Part shown: piece after piece, positions 11,539-59,798 of the stretch | Layout: every line of letters begins with the position of its first letter | Numbering within the stretch: the first letter of the stretch is position 1 | Assembly: GCA_034687125.1 (NCBI GenBank) | Contig: JAQGBZ010000071.1 | Coordinates: 124,001-188,000 of the forward strand | Direction of reading: 5' to 3' | DNA from: Neelides folsomi | Lineage: Eukaryota > Arthropoda > Collembola > Neelipleona > Neelidae | Length of the DNA: 64,000 nt | Translations under genes and position numbers: made by a program | Notes under the pieces: model-generated | Database searches by the model: none | Told to the model about the DNA's origin: nothing | The model's input: only the letters and a program-made list of their open reading frames with translations

Positions 11539-11544
11539 TTTATT
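11539..11544 (-). terminator. Poly(A) signal AATAAA overlapping the TPMT stop codon
   Basis: On the minus strand the end of the TPMT frame reads GCGGAATAAAGC: the TAA stop lies inside a perfect AATAAA. I found no other AATAAA or ATTAAA on that strand within about 150 bases downstream. If this hexamer is used, the 3' UTR is only about 15-30 nt long. Confidence 0.45.
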
Positions 11545-12385
11545 CCGCTGGCTTGGGAGCCATGAGGAAAATAATCTCTTCAGCTTGTGGCAGATCTTTT
11601 GAGACAGCTTTCATCGGATGGCCGTCAACAACTTCAATCCTCTCCAATGTTTCAAATGAAGCCCAACCCGCGAAATATTTTTCCATGTCAGCTGAATCAA
11701 CAGCCCTTGGAGGTCCGCCGTATTTTGTCCTATCATAGGCAACTGTCTGAAGGAGATAACGAAAATCTTGGGTTGGATCTAGAGAAAATACAAGGAACCT
11801 TGTAATTGCCAAAAGAAGGAAAAATACTAAACATTGTTATTCCATTATTGCCAAAGTTTAGCAATGAAATGAATGTGTTGGTATTATAGAAATAATAGCA
11901 AACGGACTTTGAGAGTTTCCAACACTTCGGTGCATCATTTGAGCATAAGGTTCCCTCAGAGAATAATCGATTGCGATGAAGGACCCGCGATCCCAAACAA
12001 CGTCGAACGGCCCCCACTTCTCAATGGGACACTTGAACAAGTCCCCATGAAATATCTTGAGTCGACCCCCACAGCCCTCAAACACCGACTCGGCCTTGTT
12101 AAAGATGAGCCCGAGGGAGTTTTCCGCCTCGAGCTCCTCGATTGCCTGAAGCACACTCTCAACCCCAAACACTTCATGACCGAGGGAAATAAGATATGGG
12201 ACATCCCGGGTTTTCCCACATAGCGGGACGAAGAACTTTTTGGTTCCTCCTTGGGTTAGGAGATCCATGTGAGTTCGGAGACTTTCATTGATCCCGTCGA
12301 TGTGCCATCCAATCTCTCTCCGTTCCCATCGACCCTCCCAAAATCTTTTCCCTGCTTCTAAATCCACCTCACTCACGTTTGACAT
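11540..12385 (-). CDS. TPMT: Thiopurine S-methyltransferase-like enzyme (2 exons)
   Basis: Predicted to be a cytosolic SAM-dependent methyltransferase of the TPMT family, which methylates sulfur (in some relatives also Se or Te) of small molecules. The exons are 12,385-11,926 and 11,778-11,540. The 147-bp intron (gtgttg...ctctag) interrupts codon 154 after its first base. The product is 232 aa; human TPMT has 245. Family marks are the N-terminal FWEGRWERREIGWH (15-28), the SAM-binding FFVPLCGKTRDVPYL (51-65) followed by GHEVFGVE (69-76), and WDRGSFIAID in the first exon. The second exon supplies TVAYDRTKYGGPP, matching the TPMT segment before the substrate lid. The start is the first ATG of the open frame, just before the conserved tryptophans. 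The gene stands alone in a gene-poor region. Its physiological substrate is not deducible; thiopurine is only the name-giving drug substrate. Confidence 0.9.
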
Positions 12386-15300
12386 CTTACATTTTACCTA
12401 ACCTAACAATAAAGAAACAGGTCAAATAAGACTATCATATACAGGTGCTTTGCTCACCGCAAATTCCGACACTCCAACCTTCTAAATCTTAAATGACAAA
12501 TTGAATTGAGAAAAACACATAACAATCTGTATATTTAACTGACAACACTTCTTATGTCTTCACCCTAGCTTGTATTTTTCTCTACTGTTGGCAAAAGAGA
12601 TTCTTAGATCCAAGCGATTCAAAAAACATTCAATAAATGTCCTTGATAAATTCAAAATTAACCAATGCGCAATAGATCAAGTTCATTACGAGTCTCCCTC
12701 TATTCAAATACTTTTTGCCCTCATCTTATCCGAGTAGTAAAAGAATCATAAATTCCATTGTTTCCCTTCTACATTATGAAATGTAAAACACAATGGGTTC
12801 TAATACATAGTTATGTGCATTTGAATGAACTCCCTCGATGACCATTAAATTTTTCCTATGGAAAATGACGATAAGGGTAGATATGAAGGATAATTTCGTG
12901 GAGGCTCTTACGGAATGTAAAAGGGGTGGCCAAACTGGGTAATTTATCTATTAAATCCTCGTAAACTTCAAAAACTGATAAGCTTTGCAGAAAAATAAAT
13001 TCCACAATTCCTTTTCCTTTTATTTATGTGACACAAGGAAGGAGTTTTGTGTCTGTGGAGACGCACACATAAACTGTTTATCCCACAACGTCTATGGGGA
13101 CGGTGAGGATGGGCAAAAGTAATCGAGTTTATTTAAATTAGCTGCAACGATTACTCGTCGTCTTTTGTCTATACAAAGAGATGCTTAATCTCGTTTTGAT
13201 CTCTGGGAATGTTTTTATGTCGTCGAAGACAAGTATTTGAAAATACTTTTATAGGAATGTGGAATGAATCCAAAGAGTCGCTCATTGAAATGCCAAACTA
13301 TAATGTGATTGTAAATTTTGCAAATGCGCTACTTAACTCCTGCAAATAATAAGAGTCAGTTTTAATGCGAGTTCAAGTAGCGTCGGGCTTAAATTGCCCT
13401 TTTTATTATAATTTTAAAACCTTCTGCAGTTGCACTATAAATAAAAAAGGATGCGGAGGTTCGTTGGTGGTGGATTATTTAGGAGTTCCGGGAAGTGGGA
13501 TGAAGGGTTGGGCGGCGGAAGTCTTACTTTGTCCCTCCATTGGGATCAAAGGCCTGGTGAGCTTACGAGCATTCCCATACAATAATAACTCTAATAATTG
13601 GGAGTAAAGGGGGGAACAGGTGGATTTTGCATTGTGCGTGTGAGTGAGCTTGGTGGGCTTAAATGATTTCCAGAGGAATCCCCCTCATGATTATGAACAG
13701 AGGAATGTTGTTCCACATGAGAAACTTCTTCACCAGCCAAAACTGCCGGGGAGATCTCTGCGGAATCGCCCCCACCAACACCAAACCTCCGGATTCATGG
13801 ATCGTAGGCCAACACGCTGGCTTTATTTATGCTATGTATATTTGACAAACATTGTTTGCATTGTTTTCTATGAGCAAACAATGGACATGTATATTTTATT
13901 TTTTTAAAGTAAATAAATAACAATATTTATTATTGTATAATTTATTTTGGAAATTACTCTGAATCTTGTGTTTTATCCAGCGACAATTTTTTGATATTAA
14001 AAAAATCTTTTTCATATTTCAAAACACTATCTAACATTTATAAAACAAGATAGAGCTAAAGTACCAATGGTAGTGCGTAAACGTATACTTATTCAGAAAT
14101 TTTTTATTACAAGGTTTTATAAAAATAAATGCGTATAGTAGTAAAGATTCATAAAAAGGGCCAAGTTTGTCAAAGCTACTTTTTAAAAAAGGAGCCTAGT
14201 TTTAATTGGCAAATATATGCAGATTCAGCGTAGCGTGAAATATTCACTTTTTACATCTAGAAAATGAAAAAAGACGTACATGTCGCCTTTTATTCCTCGC
14301 TCCCTGCTCTTTGTTTTATTAAGCAAATTATTCCATTTCTCACTCTCCTCCTTTACAAAGTCATTTTTTGAAGCGTTTCTGCATAATGGTATTATTTACA
14401 TTACAAGTTTAATGAAAAATAATGAAGAAGATCTGGTGGGGCTCTTTAGAGTTTCGACCTCCGGCTCAAACTATACAAGCTATGTAGGGCGTCTTGCGTG
14501 TGTATCTCTTTGGTTGATATTTATGCAAACGGCCTAGGCCACGGTCGGCTGAAGGTATTTATTAAGCTACTCATTCTGCTCATACCTTCCACACTTGAAA
14601 CTTCTTTTTCCTTCATCCACTTCTCTGGAATAATTTATTCAATTTTCCCTTTGAATGGACGAGAGTGTGAATATCCTCATTTCACTCTTATTTTTTACTG
14701 TCAGCCTAAGCGTCTTCTCGGAATACACATGGTTGAGAGAAACGCAGATTGTACATGTTAGTTACTCGGAGAAGCCAAAAAGTTATATTTCGGAAGTGTA
14801 CATGCCATTTTTCCTAAATAAATCTCTCCTCCCCTCATCTCTGGGAGCAGAAGAAAAAGGAAAAAAACGTAAATAAATGGTTCCTCCTTCATTGTTCAAA
14901 TTGGTAATCCAATTCGGAGTGATATTAAATTTTAGTAGAGATTTAAGATCTTCAGCCTCAACTTACTTCCTGGGGGTGTGAAGTTGGGAAGACAGAAGCC
15001 CAAGTACATGAGTAATGTTGAGAGATGTATAGAGATATCAAAGGTTCTTCTCGAGAAGAACAGTGTAGACATAAATCCTCCTTTACTTTCATGGAGCCAC
15101 ATAAATCTCGAGGGTTCTTCATAGGTCGACCAAAGCATCGGTTGAGTGTTCACCATTTCCCTCCTTCGCCCGGAATTTGAGGGAAAGAGATCACAAGGGG
15201 GAAAATCAACAAGGATACATTTCCTCCTTTTCACTATATAGGATGAAAATATTGAGACTGAAATTTAATATGAAGAGTTCGAGTTCCTCTCATTTCCATA

Positions 15301-44457: not shown

Positions 44458-46638
44458 TCACAATGCGTGTGATGCGAGAATATCCGGGAGTGATTCTTTG
44501 GATGTTTCGGGCTCGTTGAGGAATGCTGACTGTAGTGGCTGCGCTTGCTGTTGGTGGAGCAAGTCAACTACAGGCCGTTGAAACTTTGATGCTCCCCCAT
44601 GAAACTTCTCGCTCTTTGCTTCACCGTGCCTTACGTAACTTGTATTCAAGTGGATGTCTTTATCCTTTGATCCCATGAACAACTTGTATTGGCAACTGAA
44701 GTAAGAAAGGTGGTTGTAAAGCATTCCTATTGTCGCGTATACACTAAATATACAAATATAAGGATAATTATACTCATTTCAATAATAAATATTATTTATA
44801 AAATTGCACAAGTAATAATTTGCAATAAAATTGAGTATAATTTAAATCAAATGAAACTTACCCCCCTATTATTGCACATAAGCGAACAAGGTATATGAGA
44901 AACGGTTGACTATCTTCCGTGACTGATACCTGTTATTTAATTAAAATTGATTGATTATAATTATAAGTACTATTTACTATTTTTATATGGATTTATAACT
45001 ATAAGTACGTATACAAATCATTAGAGGAAATATTACGGTTAATTTAATCAATGAAGAAATCCAGTTTGAATATTAGTAAATAAATAAGTAGGTAAACAAA
45101 CAACACTGACCTGAAGCCCTGACATATCATATTTGAAAAAGATTCCAGCAACACCATGAGATCCTTTATCGTGATCAACTTCTCTTTCCATTTCCCTTAC
45201 TGAATACTGGTATGTTTGGTATGAACGAAACCGAGTGTTGACTTTGGTTGGCACAATTTGAATGAAATACTGATAGAGCATTTGATCTACCAAAAATCGA
45301 CTCTTATAAACGAAACTTTTTAAGGTAAATAATAAATTAATTGGAAAAAACTTACTCTTTTGTGCAACTTTCTCGTCTCCTTCAAGAGGATGTATAATTG
45401 CAGATGATGAATCACCGAAAGAAAATTTATATATTCGATGAGAAAAGTTATAGTCTCTTTCGGACATGAAGGCAGCAATGTGAGCATGTCCTCTTAAAAG
45501 AGGTAGAGTTTTTCCGGCTGTTATATGAAAGTTCCCAGCCACTAAAAGTTTTTGATTAATATAACATTTTTATTGATTCGATAATACATAGTAAATATCA
45601 TTAATAATCATTTAAATAATCATGCTACAACTATACGGGTGGGCCAAAAGTATCTTTCTTTTTTATAAGATTGTTTATTTAGTAAAGAAAGATACTTATG
45701 GCCCACCATATACTTAGGTATGGTAAAAAATATCTTGAATCAAAAAATGATACCTTTGTTTAGTTCTAGTTGACCATGAAGCCGACAGGCTCTCGCTAAC
45801 CCCCTTTCACTCTTTTCTTGTTTAGTCCTTAAAATCGAAAATTATTTCATTCAATAATAGTTTTATTGTAAAATTAAGTAAAATTAACGTTCTAATTTAA
45901 TGTGTAAGGCATGCAATAAAAGGATATAGGTTATAAAATGTTTAATAAATTGGTTAAACTTACATTTGGGGCATATCGTCGTACAAATTTATAAATTCAT
46001 TTTTCCAAAGCAAAGTACTCAATGAATGATATTCTTCTCGCAAATAAGAGTTCATACTTGACTTGGAATTGAAGTAAGCCTTTTGTCTCTCTGTTAACTC
46101 AAAGTGGGCAAATTCTTCTGTTAATTCTCCAAACTTCATAACATTTTGGTTGGTGGAATCAACCTAGAAATTCATTAACAGTTGTGTTAATAAAATTCAA
46201 TCGATTGTTATGATAAAAATCAAGTTTACTTTTATTGAAATCTTACTATGTCTGCTCCGATTATACCACAAGGCATACCAACAGTCATATCTACATTAAT
46301 TCTGAGCTTCGTGTCGATTTCCGTGTCTGGGCTAAAACTGAATTTGTAGTCTGGATCAAGGAAATATTTCGTCTCCAAAATGACTAACCAGCAAATTATC
46401 ACCACGGCCAGAATTGATGCTGAAATGTATTCCGTATACATTTTAAGTACTTTATATATATATATTATCATTTTCTTGATAAAATGAATGAATTTGAAAA
46501 TAAGACAATACCTGAACCACCATATGAAGTTGTTTCTAAACAAGTCTCAGGAACTTTAGGGAATACGTCGAGATCTTCAACAGTCTTTAAGACTTTCCTT
46601 TTCCTTCTAACGAGTTCAGGTTGTGGTTGAGTTGACAT
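44458..46638 (-). CDS. ERGIC2: ERGIC2 / Erv41-type ER-Golgi cargo receptor subunit (8 exons)
   Basis: Predicted two-pass membrane protein of the ER-Golgi intermediate compartment, the Erv41 partner of Erv46/ERGIC3 in COPI/COPII vesicles. Exons (minus): 46,638-46,512; 46,419-46,247; 46,163-45,964; 45,827-45,754; 45,541-45,356; 45,286-45,111; 44,929-44,862; 44,743-44,458. All junctions are GT-AG and in phase, giving 429 aa. Marks are LKTVEDLDVFPKVPET near the N terminus, membrane segment ASILAVVIICWLVIL (about 43-57), KLRINVDMTVGMPC, the lumenal VAGNFHITAGK...RGHAH block (192 onward), NFSHRI, GSHGVAGIFFKYD, and the second membrane segment around LVRLCAIIGGVYATIGML. The C-terminal tail is Q- and H-rich and makes the protein about 50 residues longer than human ERGIC2 (377 aa). 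Intron 4 contains a MITE. The gene is divergent from the PHD/RING gene. Confidence 0.93.
45638..45707. mobile_element. Mariner-type MITE (hairpin) in ERGIC2 intron 4
   Basis: A 70-bp hairpin: GGTGGGCCAAAAGTATCTTT on the left pairs with AAAGATACTTATGGCCCACC on the right (one mismatch near the middle), around a short AT-rich loop. The GGTGGGCC terminus resembles Tc1/mariner inverted repeats, which often begin CAGGGTGGGCC or similar. TA dinucleotides lie close to each end. The element is too short to code, so it is either a solo MITE or an internally deleted element. It sits wholly inside intron 4 (45,542-45,753). Confidence 0.7.
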
Positions 46639-53558: not shown

Positions 53559-53893
53559 CTATTTTGGTGGAAGGGTTCTATAGTTGTCCATATGGGTAAG
53601 GATGTAGGCTGGAACAGCCACAATTCCTCCAACCATAGCGATGAACGATATAAGTTGCTCCTGAAATCAAAATTAATTAAAATTGTATGAATATAACAAT
53701 ATTACAAACAAAAATATGTATTATTAAGCATCTAGAAAGACTTATTAGACTTGTAGTAAAATACCGCTTTGGAGATTCTGACTCTTGGCATGGATCCCAA
53801 ATGATTGCTCGACATGTGAGGATAAATTGACCTCGATGGGACAACAAATGTCTTTTGGCTAACGAGCTTCAAAGCCATTCGTGCAGCGATCAT
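53559..53893 (-). CDS. COX8: Cytochrome c oxidase subunit 8-like protein (2 coding exons, 76 aa)
   Basis: Probable small inner-membrane subunit of respiratory complex IV. The coding exons are 53,893-53,765 (43 codons) and 53,660-53,559 (33 codons plus stop), joined in phase 0 across a 104-bp intron. An acceptor (TTTTTACAG) just upstream of the ATG, with the exon starting at 53,904, implies a 5' UTR intron. The N terminus is basic and hydroxylated with no acidic residue (MIAARMALKLVSQKTFVVPSRS), typical of a mitochondrial import sequence. The mature part begins near PRVRISK, followed by one hydrophobic helix (about 46-64) and HMDNYRTLPPK. Mammalian COX8 has the same plan: PRAKI near the start, a helix, then a PAGWIL-like and H-x-x-x-YR end. 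Length (76 against 69 in human COX8A) fits. Sequence conservation is low in this family, so the assignment is by architecture plus these motifs. Confidence 0.75.
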
Positions 53894-55827: not shown

Positions 55828-56975
55828 GGACGATCCGATCATTAATTATTGTACTAAAACCCCTAATTTAATGGCGCCCATAAAAATATATTTTTAAAAT
55901 ATCGAGATATGTTATTTGAATCCAAAGTATAAAAAGATTTCTTAAATCTAAACACGAGTTAAAATTAAATATTTAAAATTTAACACAAATCTCAACAAAT
56001 TTGATTTTCATTAAAATTTGACTGTTAATTTCCAAGTAATAAAATTTTAGGTAAGTAATGATTTATAAGCTTTTGAATACACTAACAAACATAGATATTA
56101 AGTATTATAACTGTTGGAATAATTTGCCTATTCGAAAATTAATTTGGAATAAATCAAAGTCGGGTGGGGACAATCCGATCACACATAAGTGGGGACAATC
56201 CGGTCACTTATAATTTTTGGATTTTAATGAATTGACAATTTTATGTAGCAATGCCACGTAGGAGGATTAAAAAGACATCAAGAGGAAGTCATTCTGCAAA
56301 AATGATGGAAGCTGCAAACAAAATAATCACAACGAAACGGAGCATTCGATCTGTGGCTACAGAATATGGAATCCCATTTTCAACTCTGAGAGACTTTCAC
56401 TCAAAACTAAACGATCCAACGAGAATTTCAAATCCAAGGCCTGGATACAATCCTCATACTCGAGTCTTTTCTACTGAACAAGAAGTTGAAATTGAAAATT
56501 ATTTAAAAAAGGCTTGCGATATGTTTTGTGGCCTTACACCTAAAAATGTTCGAAAACTTGCGTTTCAATTTGCTGAAAAGATAGAGAAAAATGGAAAAAA
56601 GAAAAATGTGCAAGTAAGGATTGGTTTACCAACTTTATGAAAAGGCATCCAACACTTTCAATTCGTTCACCGCAACCGACAAGCATAGCCAGAGCGACAA
56701 GTTTTAATCGTCACAACGTTAAAATGTTCTTTGAAAATTTATCAAATATCCTTGAAATATATAAATTTGAGCCGCAGGATATTTATAACATGGATGAAAC
56801 CGGAATAACTACCGTTCAAACTCCAGAAAAGATCGTTGCTAAAAAAGGAATGAAGCAAATAGGCGCTTTGACATCTGCAGAACGTGGCACGCTCGTAACA
56901 ATGGGACTTGCAGTCAACGCGACAGGATCAAAACGTTATTTATTTTTATTAGACCCATATTTATGTAATTTGTAA
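55807..56975 (+). mobile_element. Truncated pogo/Tigger-type DNA transposon
   Basis: The transposase frame begins at 56,251 (MPRRRIKKTSRG). It has a pipsqueak-type helix-turn-helix (about residues 17-52: AANKIITTKRSIRSVATEYGI), then a CENP-B-like second HTH half (STEQEVEIENYLKKACDM...GLTPKNVRKLAFQF). After one reading-frame change in an A-run (56,595-56,600) it continues with SKDWFTNFMKRHPTLSIRSP and the first catalytic region IYNMDETGITTVQTP...KGMKQIGALTSAERGTLVT. It stops at 56,975, before the second and third acidic residues of the DDE/D triad, so it is inactive. Upstream, four copies of an ATCCGATC-centred motif (55,816; 55,833; 56,173; 56,198) probably mark the left terminal region. No right end is present; the next feature is the 3' end of the monooxygenase gene. 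Confidence 0.85.
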
Positions 56976-57097: not shown

Positions 57098-59798
57098 TTA
57101 ATCAAAGTTCATATGAGACAAATCCATAAATTTAAGCTTTTTCCAATAATTAATGCAAGTTTTTGGCCAAACAGCAGTTGGAAATCCATCCTTATTGAAA
57201 TACCAAGCATTGCAATCAGCACGATTTCCCCAAACAGTAGGCTTGACATCCTCTTCGATCATATCCATGAACTCTTCTTGTGAAGATTCTTTCACAGTCA
57301 CCACTTTTGATCCTCTTCTAATTAGCTCTTTGAAAACTGTAATTGTGTAATTAACTTGGCATTCAATCATGAAAATAGCACTGTTGTGTCCAAGTCCCTA
57401 TAAGACATTTTAACAAGTATCTTCCACAGGTCACAAAAGCACAATACTTTTTATATCGTAAAAGATTATATTTTATTACAGTGTTTGGTCCAAGGAGTAA
57501 GAAAGCGTTAGGTAAAAGGGCTGATTGAACTCCATAAAATGATTTTGGATGGGTTTGAACCCAATTTTTAAGTACGCTCGTTTTTCCTTTTCCAATTATT
57601 TCCATTGGGAATAAATAGTCTTGGACTCGGTAGCCTGTAGCTAAAATAAGAACCTGAAAGAGTATAATTGATATTATAGAATAACTGATATAGTCGTCTC
57701 CACTTTGGTCGACTGTGGAACTCATTGGGAATCTCCTTGGGGGACCCTCTGGGTGAGAACTGAAGTAGGGAGTTTTTTCCCGAATGACAAAAAAAGTCCA
57801 GTTCTCTGCCGTACACACAGGTGGAGACGAGCGGATTCTGCACTATCAATCCATAGTTAAGTTAGTTAATATATAGAGTTGATGGAGGGAGGAATGAAGC
57901 CTATGTAAGCTGAGGGGACGGGTGGAGACAACCCTCGTGGAAACACGGCAGACAGAAGAGGAAGGCGGGAAAGCTCACAGCCTTGGCACTACCAGATTGT
58001 AAACTTACACCCCCAGGGAGGACAGAGAACCCAACAAAAGTGTGAGATTCGGCTACCGGACCCAACTTGGAATCACCGCCACGACGGACGTTGCCACCTA
58101 CTCACTAAGCATACCAATAGCCTGCTCCTAAAAGGGACAGATCGACGTAATCCGGCAACTAAAGGATGGAGTAACAGAGTTACTAGTCATACCTATGCAA
58201 CACCATCATTCTGTACCCATAGAATAAGAATAGAATTAATTAGAGAAACTCTAAGGGCGAAAGCCGAAATATCGGAGTATAAACACCCATAAAAAATTAT
58301 AGAATAACTGATACTGGTAATAACAATTTGATAAAAGATTCTTTATAACGATTAATTTATAATCGTTTCATCAAATTGTTTTTATCCATTAGCGTACATC
58401 AAGCTTCGTGTCCTTTCCATCGGCAGTCAACAATGAATTCGGTTTCACAGTCTTGATTTTTTCACAATGCAGAGTTGTTTGAGGTCTCATCATAGCTTTA
58501 TACAAATCACTTGATAAAACAATTCTTTTACAACCAAACTGATATTTAGGCGTCATGTTTTCTTTTAGATATGGATCAGCATCCTTTAATCCATTTTCTC
58601 TTATATGGTTCAGATGTTTATTAGCTTTAAAATAAATAACGAAAATTCTTGTAAATTCCCATTACCTTATATTTTATAAGCAGCAATAATAAATTATTAT
58701 TTTAATGTCATGTGGGGATGTGGGAATTAAAAACTTACCCATCCTTCTAAAAAAAGTTCCATCAACGAACATGTTATAAAACAACTCGAAGATAAGGAAG
58801 ATAAGACTCCGGTACAAATATTGAAAAAATGGAATGTATTTGAACATTTTTTTCAAAAACGGGGAGTGTTTAAATTGGGTACGTGGAACTACCCAAGGTG
58901 GGTTTCTTTGGAAAACATGAAGTTCTTTAACTTTTGGTGCAATAACTGGAATTATTTGTGTACTGCTGGAACCGCTTCCTACAATCCCAACAACTTTATT
59001 TTCAAGCTCAATGTCATCGTCCCAAAGTGCTGAATGCATTTTGATTCCTTTAAAATCGTCAAACTCTTTTGGAAAATTGGGTTGTCTGAAAGCTCCACAT
59101 GCAGAAATCCTAAATATCATAATTGTCGAATGACATGATTGACATTACTGTAGATAAATAATTATATTTTAAAGATAAGTAAATACGAATTTCAACAATG
59201 TTTAATTGTTCGTATAATTCCCTTACAGGATGTCAAACTTGTGAATGGTTTCTGTATTGTCTTTTGTGTTGAAAACAGTAACGTCCCACTGGTTGGTTGC
59301 TTCTTGCCATTCAGCTCGTTTCACTTGAGTGTTGAACTTAATGTTTTTGTACAAATTGTACTTTTTTGCAACTCCTCTGAGATATTCAAGGATTTCAGGT
59401 TGGGATGAATAATTTTCTGACCAATCTTGAATGAAACAAATAATCATAAAATTAAATTCTAAATAAATATTATATTAAAAAATGTTGATTAATAATTAAT
59501 TAATTGTCATTAATTTACACACTTGGATTTTGTTCAAATGAAAGTGAATAAAGATGGCTTGGAATGTCGCATGCACACCCGGGATATTTGTTGACTAGCC
59601 ACGTTCCTCCAACATCAGGATTGGTTTCAAACGTTGTATAGTCTTTAATACCCAATTTCTCCTTTAATTGAATTCCCATACAGAGTCCAGAATACCTGTG
59701 ATCAGCAAATTATAATTAACAAATGGAAGTTTGATAGTAATTTAATTATTTTACCCTGCTCCGATGATACACACCGAAGGGTTGGTCGGTCGAACCAT
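57098..59798 (-). CDS. Type I Baeyer-Villiger-type flavin monooxygenase (7 exons, 495 aa)
   Basis: Predicted FAD- and NADPH-dependent monooxygenase that inserts oxygen next to a carbonyl. Exons (minus): 59,798-59,755; 59,695-59,523; 59,425-59,227; 59,109-58,739; 58,624-58,398; 57,653-57,480; 57,397-57,098. All junctions are GT-AG and in phase. Motifs are the FAD Rossmann loop IIGAGYSGL (12-20), VGGTW...[28 protein letters not shown], the diagnostic BVMO fingerprint [12 protein letters not shown] (158-169; consensus FxGxxxHxxxW plus P/D), the NADPH Rossmann loop [10 protein letters not shown] (180-189), [27 protein letters not shown] (338-346), LLLGPNT then GLGHNS, and a C-terminal W...WPKT segment. 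Ordinary animal FMOs carry FxGxxxHxxxY/F instead. Exon 2 has three nested GT donors; only CCAA|gtgtgt keeps the frame. Intron 5 contains a 605-bp retroposon. The substrate is unknown. Confidence 0.92.
57691..58313 (+). mobile_element. 605-bp retroposed insertion with perfect 18-bp target duplication
   Basis: The sequence ATTATAGAATAACTGATA occurs at 57,673-57,690 and again at 58,296-58,313, enclosing 605 bp (57,691-58,295). The insert is clearly GC-richer than the intron around it and has no intact coding frame. Its plus-strand end is compactly folded: TTAGAG-AAA-CTCTAA (58,240-58,254), GGC-GAAA-GCC (58,256-58,265) overlapping CCGA-AATA-TCGG (58,264-58,275), then an A-rich end. Long target duplications of variable length plus a structured, A-rich 3' end point to LINE-machinery target-primed reverse transcription: a SINE or a 5'-truncated LINE 3' UTR. 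It lies antisense to the host gene inside intron 5 (57,654-58,397). Confidence 0.85.

Follow-up and report, generated by a model that had tools for sequence, protein, structure and literature searches.

Baeyer-Villiger monooxygenases (BVMOs) are common in bacteria and fungi and are rarely reported in animals, among which their distribution is patchy; they are also valued as oxidation catalysts. Several described systems can be set beside the locus studied here. The HapE-like BVMOs (4-hydroxyacetophenone monooxygenase group) are, in bacteria, mostly annotated as NAD(P)/FAD-dependent oxidoreductases. The classic BVMOs include phenylacetone monooxygenase (PAMO; PDB 1w4x). The animal FMOs, represented here by PDB 5nmw, ancestral mammalian FMOs and an FMO from the same genome as our locus, belong with them to the class B flavin monooxygenase superfamily. 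Finally, BVMOs encoded in animal genomes are described for Hydra vulgaris, Oikopleura dioica and Adineta vaga (PMC4498894, 2015), and the available part of that paper argues that metazoan BVMOs descend from an opisthokont ancestor, with losses; these animals are of other phyla, and we compare with them by report of presence rather than by sequence.

The available text of a 2023 family study (PMC10682829) uses two fingerprints to tell BVMOs from FMOs, FxGxxxHxxxW(P/D) and GGxWxxxx(F/Y)P(G/M)xxxD, and proposes a link between the expansion of BVMOs and both niches such as soil and the detoxification of carbonyl compounds. Our analysis indicates, on the strength of sequence comparison, that a pancrustacean arthropod very probably carries an intact nuclear gene encoding a HapE-like BVMO.

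Gene structure

The window, by which we mean the whole 64-kb stretch of DNA that was analysed, is part of contig C71 in an assembly of 75.1 Mb and 840 contigs. On the minus strand of the window, from 59798 to 57098, seven exons join in phase across six GT-AG introns to give 1488 nt of coding sequence and a protein of 495 aa with no internal stop. The spliced frame is thus open, and the coordinates, strand and seven-exon count given by an earlier sequence-only reading of this DNA were right. The features of the gene are as follows.

Exon 1, 59755..59798, minus strand: ATG at 59798; start of the FAD-binding Rossmann region
Exon 2, 59523..59695, minus strand: second BVMO fingerprint (15 residues); D58, equivalent of PAMO D66
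Exon 3, 59227..59425, minus strand
Exon 4, 58739..59109, minus strand: first BVMO fingerprint (12 residues) and second Rossmann loop, GSGSSS
Exon 5, 58398..58624, minus strand: R296 in GCKR, equivalent of PAMO R337
Intron 5, 57654..58397, minus strand: 744 nt
Repeated element in intron 5, 57691..58295, no strand assigned: 605 bp, between 18-bp direct repeats at 57673-57690 and 58296-58313
Exon 6, 57480..57653, minus strand: LATGY motif
Exon 7, 57098..57397, minus strand: C-terminal part, HapE-like, and stop codon

From first to last the introns measure 59, 97, 117, 114, 744 and 82 nt. Of 864 combinations of splice sites listed by hand, 24 left the frame open; the model is the one among these 24 whose junctions fit conserved family sequence, for example GPNTGLGHNS. 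The GC content at third codon positions is 33%, that of the introns other than intron 5 is 13-26%, and 2-kb stretches of the window range from 30 to 44%. When the 495-aa protein was searched against its own genome, all six matches fell inside the BVMO gene, none of them in exon 1, and no second BVMO copy was found in the 75.1-Mb assembly.

Family assignment

Both published fingerprints are present in the protein, the first at residue 158, where it ends in W-D, and the second at residue 44. The earlier reading had described an exact BVMO fingerprint ending in W-D instead of the Y/F form, and this description holds: a pattern search for the ordinary-FMO fingerprint FxGxxxHxxx(Y/F)(K/R) found no match in the 495-aa protein, and the FMO on contig C13 of the same genome carries YEGRTLHSSSY. 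Among the sequences that we aligned, neither fingerprint matches any of the three FMO rows, both match the two EthA-like rows, and the second matches 37 of the 38 HapE-like rows. The first occurs in its strict form in 26 of those 38, and since it is missing from the other 12 we treat it as a signature of the family and not as its definition. The fingerprints part BVMO-type from FMO-type proteins; they do not part kinds of BVMO.

The same reading had claimed both Rossmann loops, the dinucleotide loops that flank the fingerprint in type I BVMOs. The first, GAGYSG at residue 13, fits GxGxxG/A, while the second, GSGSSS (183-188), aligns with the loop of the family and ends in S, so that it does not match that pattern. 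D58 and R296 align with D66 and R337 of PAMO in the PDB alignment as well as in the profile alignment, and we take these PAMO residues to be the active-site Asp and Arg with catalytic roles. The protein shares with PAMO and other classic BVMOs these two positions and, apparently, the layout with two Rossmann regions; it differs from PAMO in that identity is 32%, over fragments, and in that PAMO has W-P where the arthropod protein has W-D.

What places the protein more precisely is the set of similarity scores. Pfam returns FMO-like at 77 bits, from a model that spans FMOs and BVMOs alike, and none of the NCBIfam models reached its cut-off with the 495-aa protein. In the PDB search the best match is PAMO (200 bits) and the best FMO scores 60 bits. 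The reverse is seen for the gene on C13, the other FMO-like gene brought up by the family search (five candidates scored): it matches 5nmw, which we take to be an insect FMO, at 235 bits and its best BVMO at 40 bits, and is an ordinary FMO. Against family profiles the BVMO-gene protein scores 514 bits (5 rows) or 544 bits (38 rows) for HapE-like sequences, 254 for classic BVMOs, 121 for FMOs and 114 for EthA-like proteins. Either the query or an alignment led by it served to bring in the HapE-like rows, which biases the scores in their favour; the gap should be far above what this bias would give, yet the bias is present. The FMO profile includes the C13 FMO, so that the score of the C13 gene against it is given by construction. 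In direct alignment the best HapE-like row reaches 377 bits over 494 columns, compared with 62 bits over 260 columns for the C13 FMO. Because bacterial homologues align over nearly the full length with up to 377 bits, the match to the BVMO family is not due to chance. Fingerprints, PDB matches and profile scores thus bear out the view that the protein is of the type I BVMO kind and not an ordinary FMO.

The 88 HapE-like loci that were aligned show 33-39% identity to the arthropod protein over nearly its whole length and have in common with it a C-terminal WY...P pattern; unlike them, the arthropod gene has six introns and sits on a very long branch. Bacterial HapE-like genes often adjoin a gene for an alpha/beta hydrolase or an SDR, and none was seen among the nine window ORFs that were scanned. 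The animal FMOs are more distant, with 22-29% identity over 178-260 columns and the Y/F form of the fingerprint.

For trees we fetched 98 bacterial and archaeal loci (L023-L030, L031-L110, L111-L117 and L118-L120), 95 of which entered the alignment; L025 was excluded for an internal stop and L120 was not used. Prokaryotic loci were hand-picked for spread, 45 for the first tree and 33 for the second (31 of the 45 together with L118 and L119), 14 rows being dropped between the two, among them L112 because of its long branch. Both maximum-likelihood trees (50 and 38 rows) place the protein with the HapE-like rows, with support of 94/93 and 96/94, and apart from the classic BVMO, EthA-like and FMO rows; neither gives it a supported sister. 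The classic BVMO rows group on their own (100/99). The query sits on a long branch of 1.7, and the program warned of long branches, of an unusual letter composition in the query and, for the 50-row tree, of an unsettled bootstrap.

In the course of these searches we noticed that in L116 (plasmid pMP1 of Deinococcus radiodurans) and in H19 and H23-H25 (Burkholderia glumae plasmids) the class B monooxygenase match lies within proteins annotated as alpha/beta hydrolase fold, which suggests fused monooxygenase-hydrolase proteins.

Origin of the gene

How did a HapE-like gene come to lie in an arthropod genome? Relatives were found in 405 plasmid records, all below 60% identity, 25 of them listed. 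In bacterial and archaeal genome contigs at least 592 of 593 candidate stretches, picked with two peptide patterns only, were confirmed, and the best 80 were kept. Across the two listings the highest identity is 39%. The closest listed relatives come from Acidobacteriota, Myxococcota, Planctomycetota and Pseudomonadota, and no donor stands out. At this level of identity, it is unlikely that the gene was recently acquired from any of the bacteria sampled. The long branch, the introns and the insertion of an element make the gene look old in its lineage. It fits opisthokont descent with losses, or an old transfer, about equally well.

In our estimate, vertical descent from a BVMO of an early animal or opisthokont, lost since in most animal lineages, comes close to an even chance. 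It is the descent argued, in the accessible part of PMC4498894, for the Hydra, Oikopleura and Adineta genes, and the low identity to the listed prokaryotes together with the six introns suits an old gene; the long branch, however, would suit fast evolution equally. Slightly less probable, in our view, is an ancient acquisition, in which an ancestor of the arthropod obtained the gene from a bacterial or fungal source and introns came later. The wide spread of relatives in bacteria, both in the genome stretches and in the plasmid records, speaks for such an acquisition, as does the position of the gene among HapE-like bacterial rows, in trees where it is the sole eukaryotic representative of the HapE-like group. 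Against it stand the missing donor, relatives of at most 39% listed identity scattered over several phyla, and the lack of a supported sister among the prokaryotes sampled. A fuller version, in which a pancrustacean HapE-like BVMO lineage stems from one deep microbial acquisition, gained introns and is active in ketone detoxification or in the synthesis of ester signals, we consider rather unlikely as a whole.

A viral or phage origin was considered and rejected: the protein alone found no relatives in viral contigs, and alignment A2 found one, at 34%. Eight phage records were matched, all from one 'Acinetobacter phage MD-2021a' set (CAKLQH02/CAKLQF02), six annotated as hapE and two as ethA; the set has the look of bacterial contigs that were deposited under a phage name.

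Position relative to ordinary FMOs

The protein could in principle be a divergent ordinary animal FMO that arrived at the W-D motif by convergence. When it was forced to group with the FMO rows, of which the trees hold only 3 and 5, two being fragments, the cost was 11.0 and 1.9 log-likelihood units and the AU test did not reject the arrangement (p = 0.227 and 0.397). The trees themselves thus speak against a place inside animal FMOs, and the AU values leave an FMO-side position standing. We read this non-rejection as low power, and the family call rests on the full-length scores. These run the other way: a HapE-like row reaches 377 bits over 494 columns where the FMO of the same genome reaches 62 bits over 260 columns, the profiles give 514 against 121 bits, and both BVMO fingerprints are present. 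On scores and fingerprints, the AU tests not being decisive, we reject ordinary FMO identity, which we regard as very improbable.

Host genome and neighbouring features

The 15,157-bp contig C742 is a mitochondrial genome, COX1 being recognised by Pfam and the other proteins by eye from their translations. ARAGORN names 21 of its tRNAs, tRNA-Asn not among them, and leaves one call unnamed. Its minus-strand order is I-Q-M-nad2-W-C-Y-cox1-L(UUR)-cox2-K-D and so on, which is the pancrustacean order; with its succession COX1-tRNA-Leu(UUR)-COX2 it supports the earlier description of the genome as arthropod-like. An exact 19-base pattern for 18S gave 0 hits. C742 and C71 are linked only through membership of one assembly. 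Features of the window outside the BVMO gene that bear on its surroundings are these.

45051-46546, minus strand: ERGIC_N and COPII-coated ERV exons (Pfam) of a gene for an ERGIC-type secretory protein
53577-53663, minus strand: COX8-like match, 18.9 bits (cut-off 24), E 0.14
56236-56637, plus strand: Psq helix-turn-helix ORF in the 3' flank, 20.8 bits (cut-off 20.4)
56577-56972, plus strand: ORF overlapping the Psq ORF in another frame, without Pfam match

The 18-bp direct repeats around the 605-bp element of intron 5 look like a target-site duplication. The element has 24 matches, several of them partial, on 22 contigs, its own locus included, and one of the 22 is C13, the bearer of the ordinary FMO. 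Because the element recurs, C13 shares it and ERGIC-type exons, which we take to be eukaryotic, lie nearby, the gene belongs to the nuclear genome of which the assembly consists. A bacterial or fungal contaminant contig, which the abundance of BVMOs in microbes and the bare assembly link between C71 and the mitochondrial contig might favour, is scarcely credible and is rejected in view of the GT-AG introns, the intron 5 repeat shared by 22 contigs and the eukaryotic neighbours, in line with the earlier argument against contamination.

Two parts of that argument call for qualification. Of the transposons it placed in the introns and the flank, the intron 5 repeat stands, and the 3' flank offers a Psq ORF barely above its cut-off and a second ORF without Pfam match. 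The pair (56236-56972, plus strand) looks like a broken pogo/Tigger-type transposase, the type being a matter of interpretation. The COX8-like neighbour corresponds to a sub-threshold match, probably the gene that was meant; no other place in the genome matches COX8 with an E value of 1 or less, and the assignment is plausible without being established. Elsewhere in the window, at 11543-12397 on the minus strand, lie two pieces of Thiopurine S-methyltransferase (PF05724; 114 bits and a sub-cut-off 23 bits), probably two exons. Scans of the 64-kb window for tRNA and Rfam families gave no matches.

Discussion

What would such an enzyme do? By analogy with described BVMOs, NADPH would reduce the bound FAD, and O2 would then yield a C4a-peroxyflavin beside R296 and D58; the active-site Arg of BVMOs assists the peroxyflavin step. 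With one oxygen inserted beside the carbonyl, a ketone would become an ester or lactone. HapE takes its name from an aryl ketone, and our preferred guess is that the arthropod protein would clear ketones that come from the diet, from fungi or from microbes. We infer that the gene is expressed and that its product performs BVMO chemistry. According to the available text of PMC10682829, the class B peroxyflavin is stabilised by bound NADP+, and mammalian FMO5 is listed there with Baeyer-Villiger oxidation, so that family alone does not fix the reaction.

Entries named BVMO may exist in databases for spiders and other arthropods, and for this reason we do not claim a first in arthropods. In the literature searched, as far as its available text extends, no report of an arthropod BVMO gene was found: the accessible parts of PMC10682829 and PMC8510581 report none, and 'monooxygenase' is absent from the main text, as available, of PMC13342648, a compendium of animal transfers. 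Animal BVMOs as such are already known, and the new part, within the literature searched, is the host group. The interest of the gene thus lies in its host and in the question of its origin.

An intact arthropod gene offers a clean test case for deciding between ancient relics and transfers as the source of animal BVMOs. Were the deep-acquisition reading true, it would add a reaction class undescribed, within the literature searched, from arthropods' own genes. The gene would also allow the idea of niche and detoxification put forward in the available part of PMC10682829 to be tested in an animal, and it provides a test case for whether an arthropod converts ketones to esters or lactones with an enzyme of its own.
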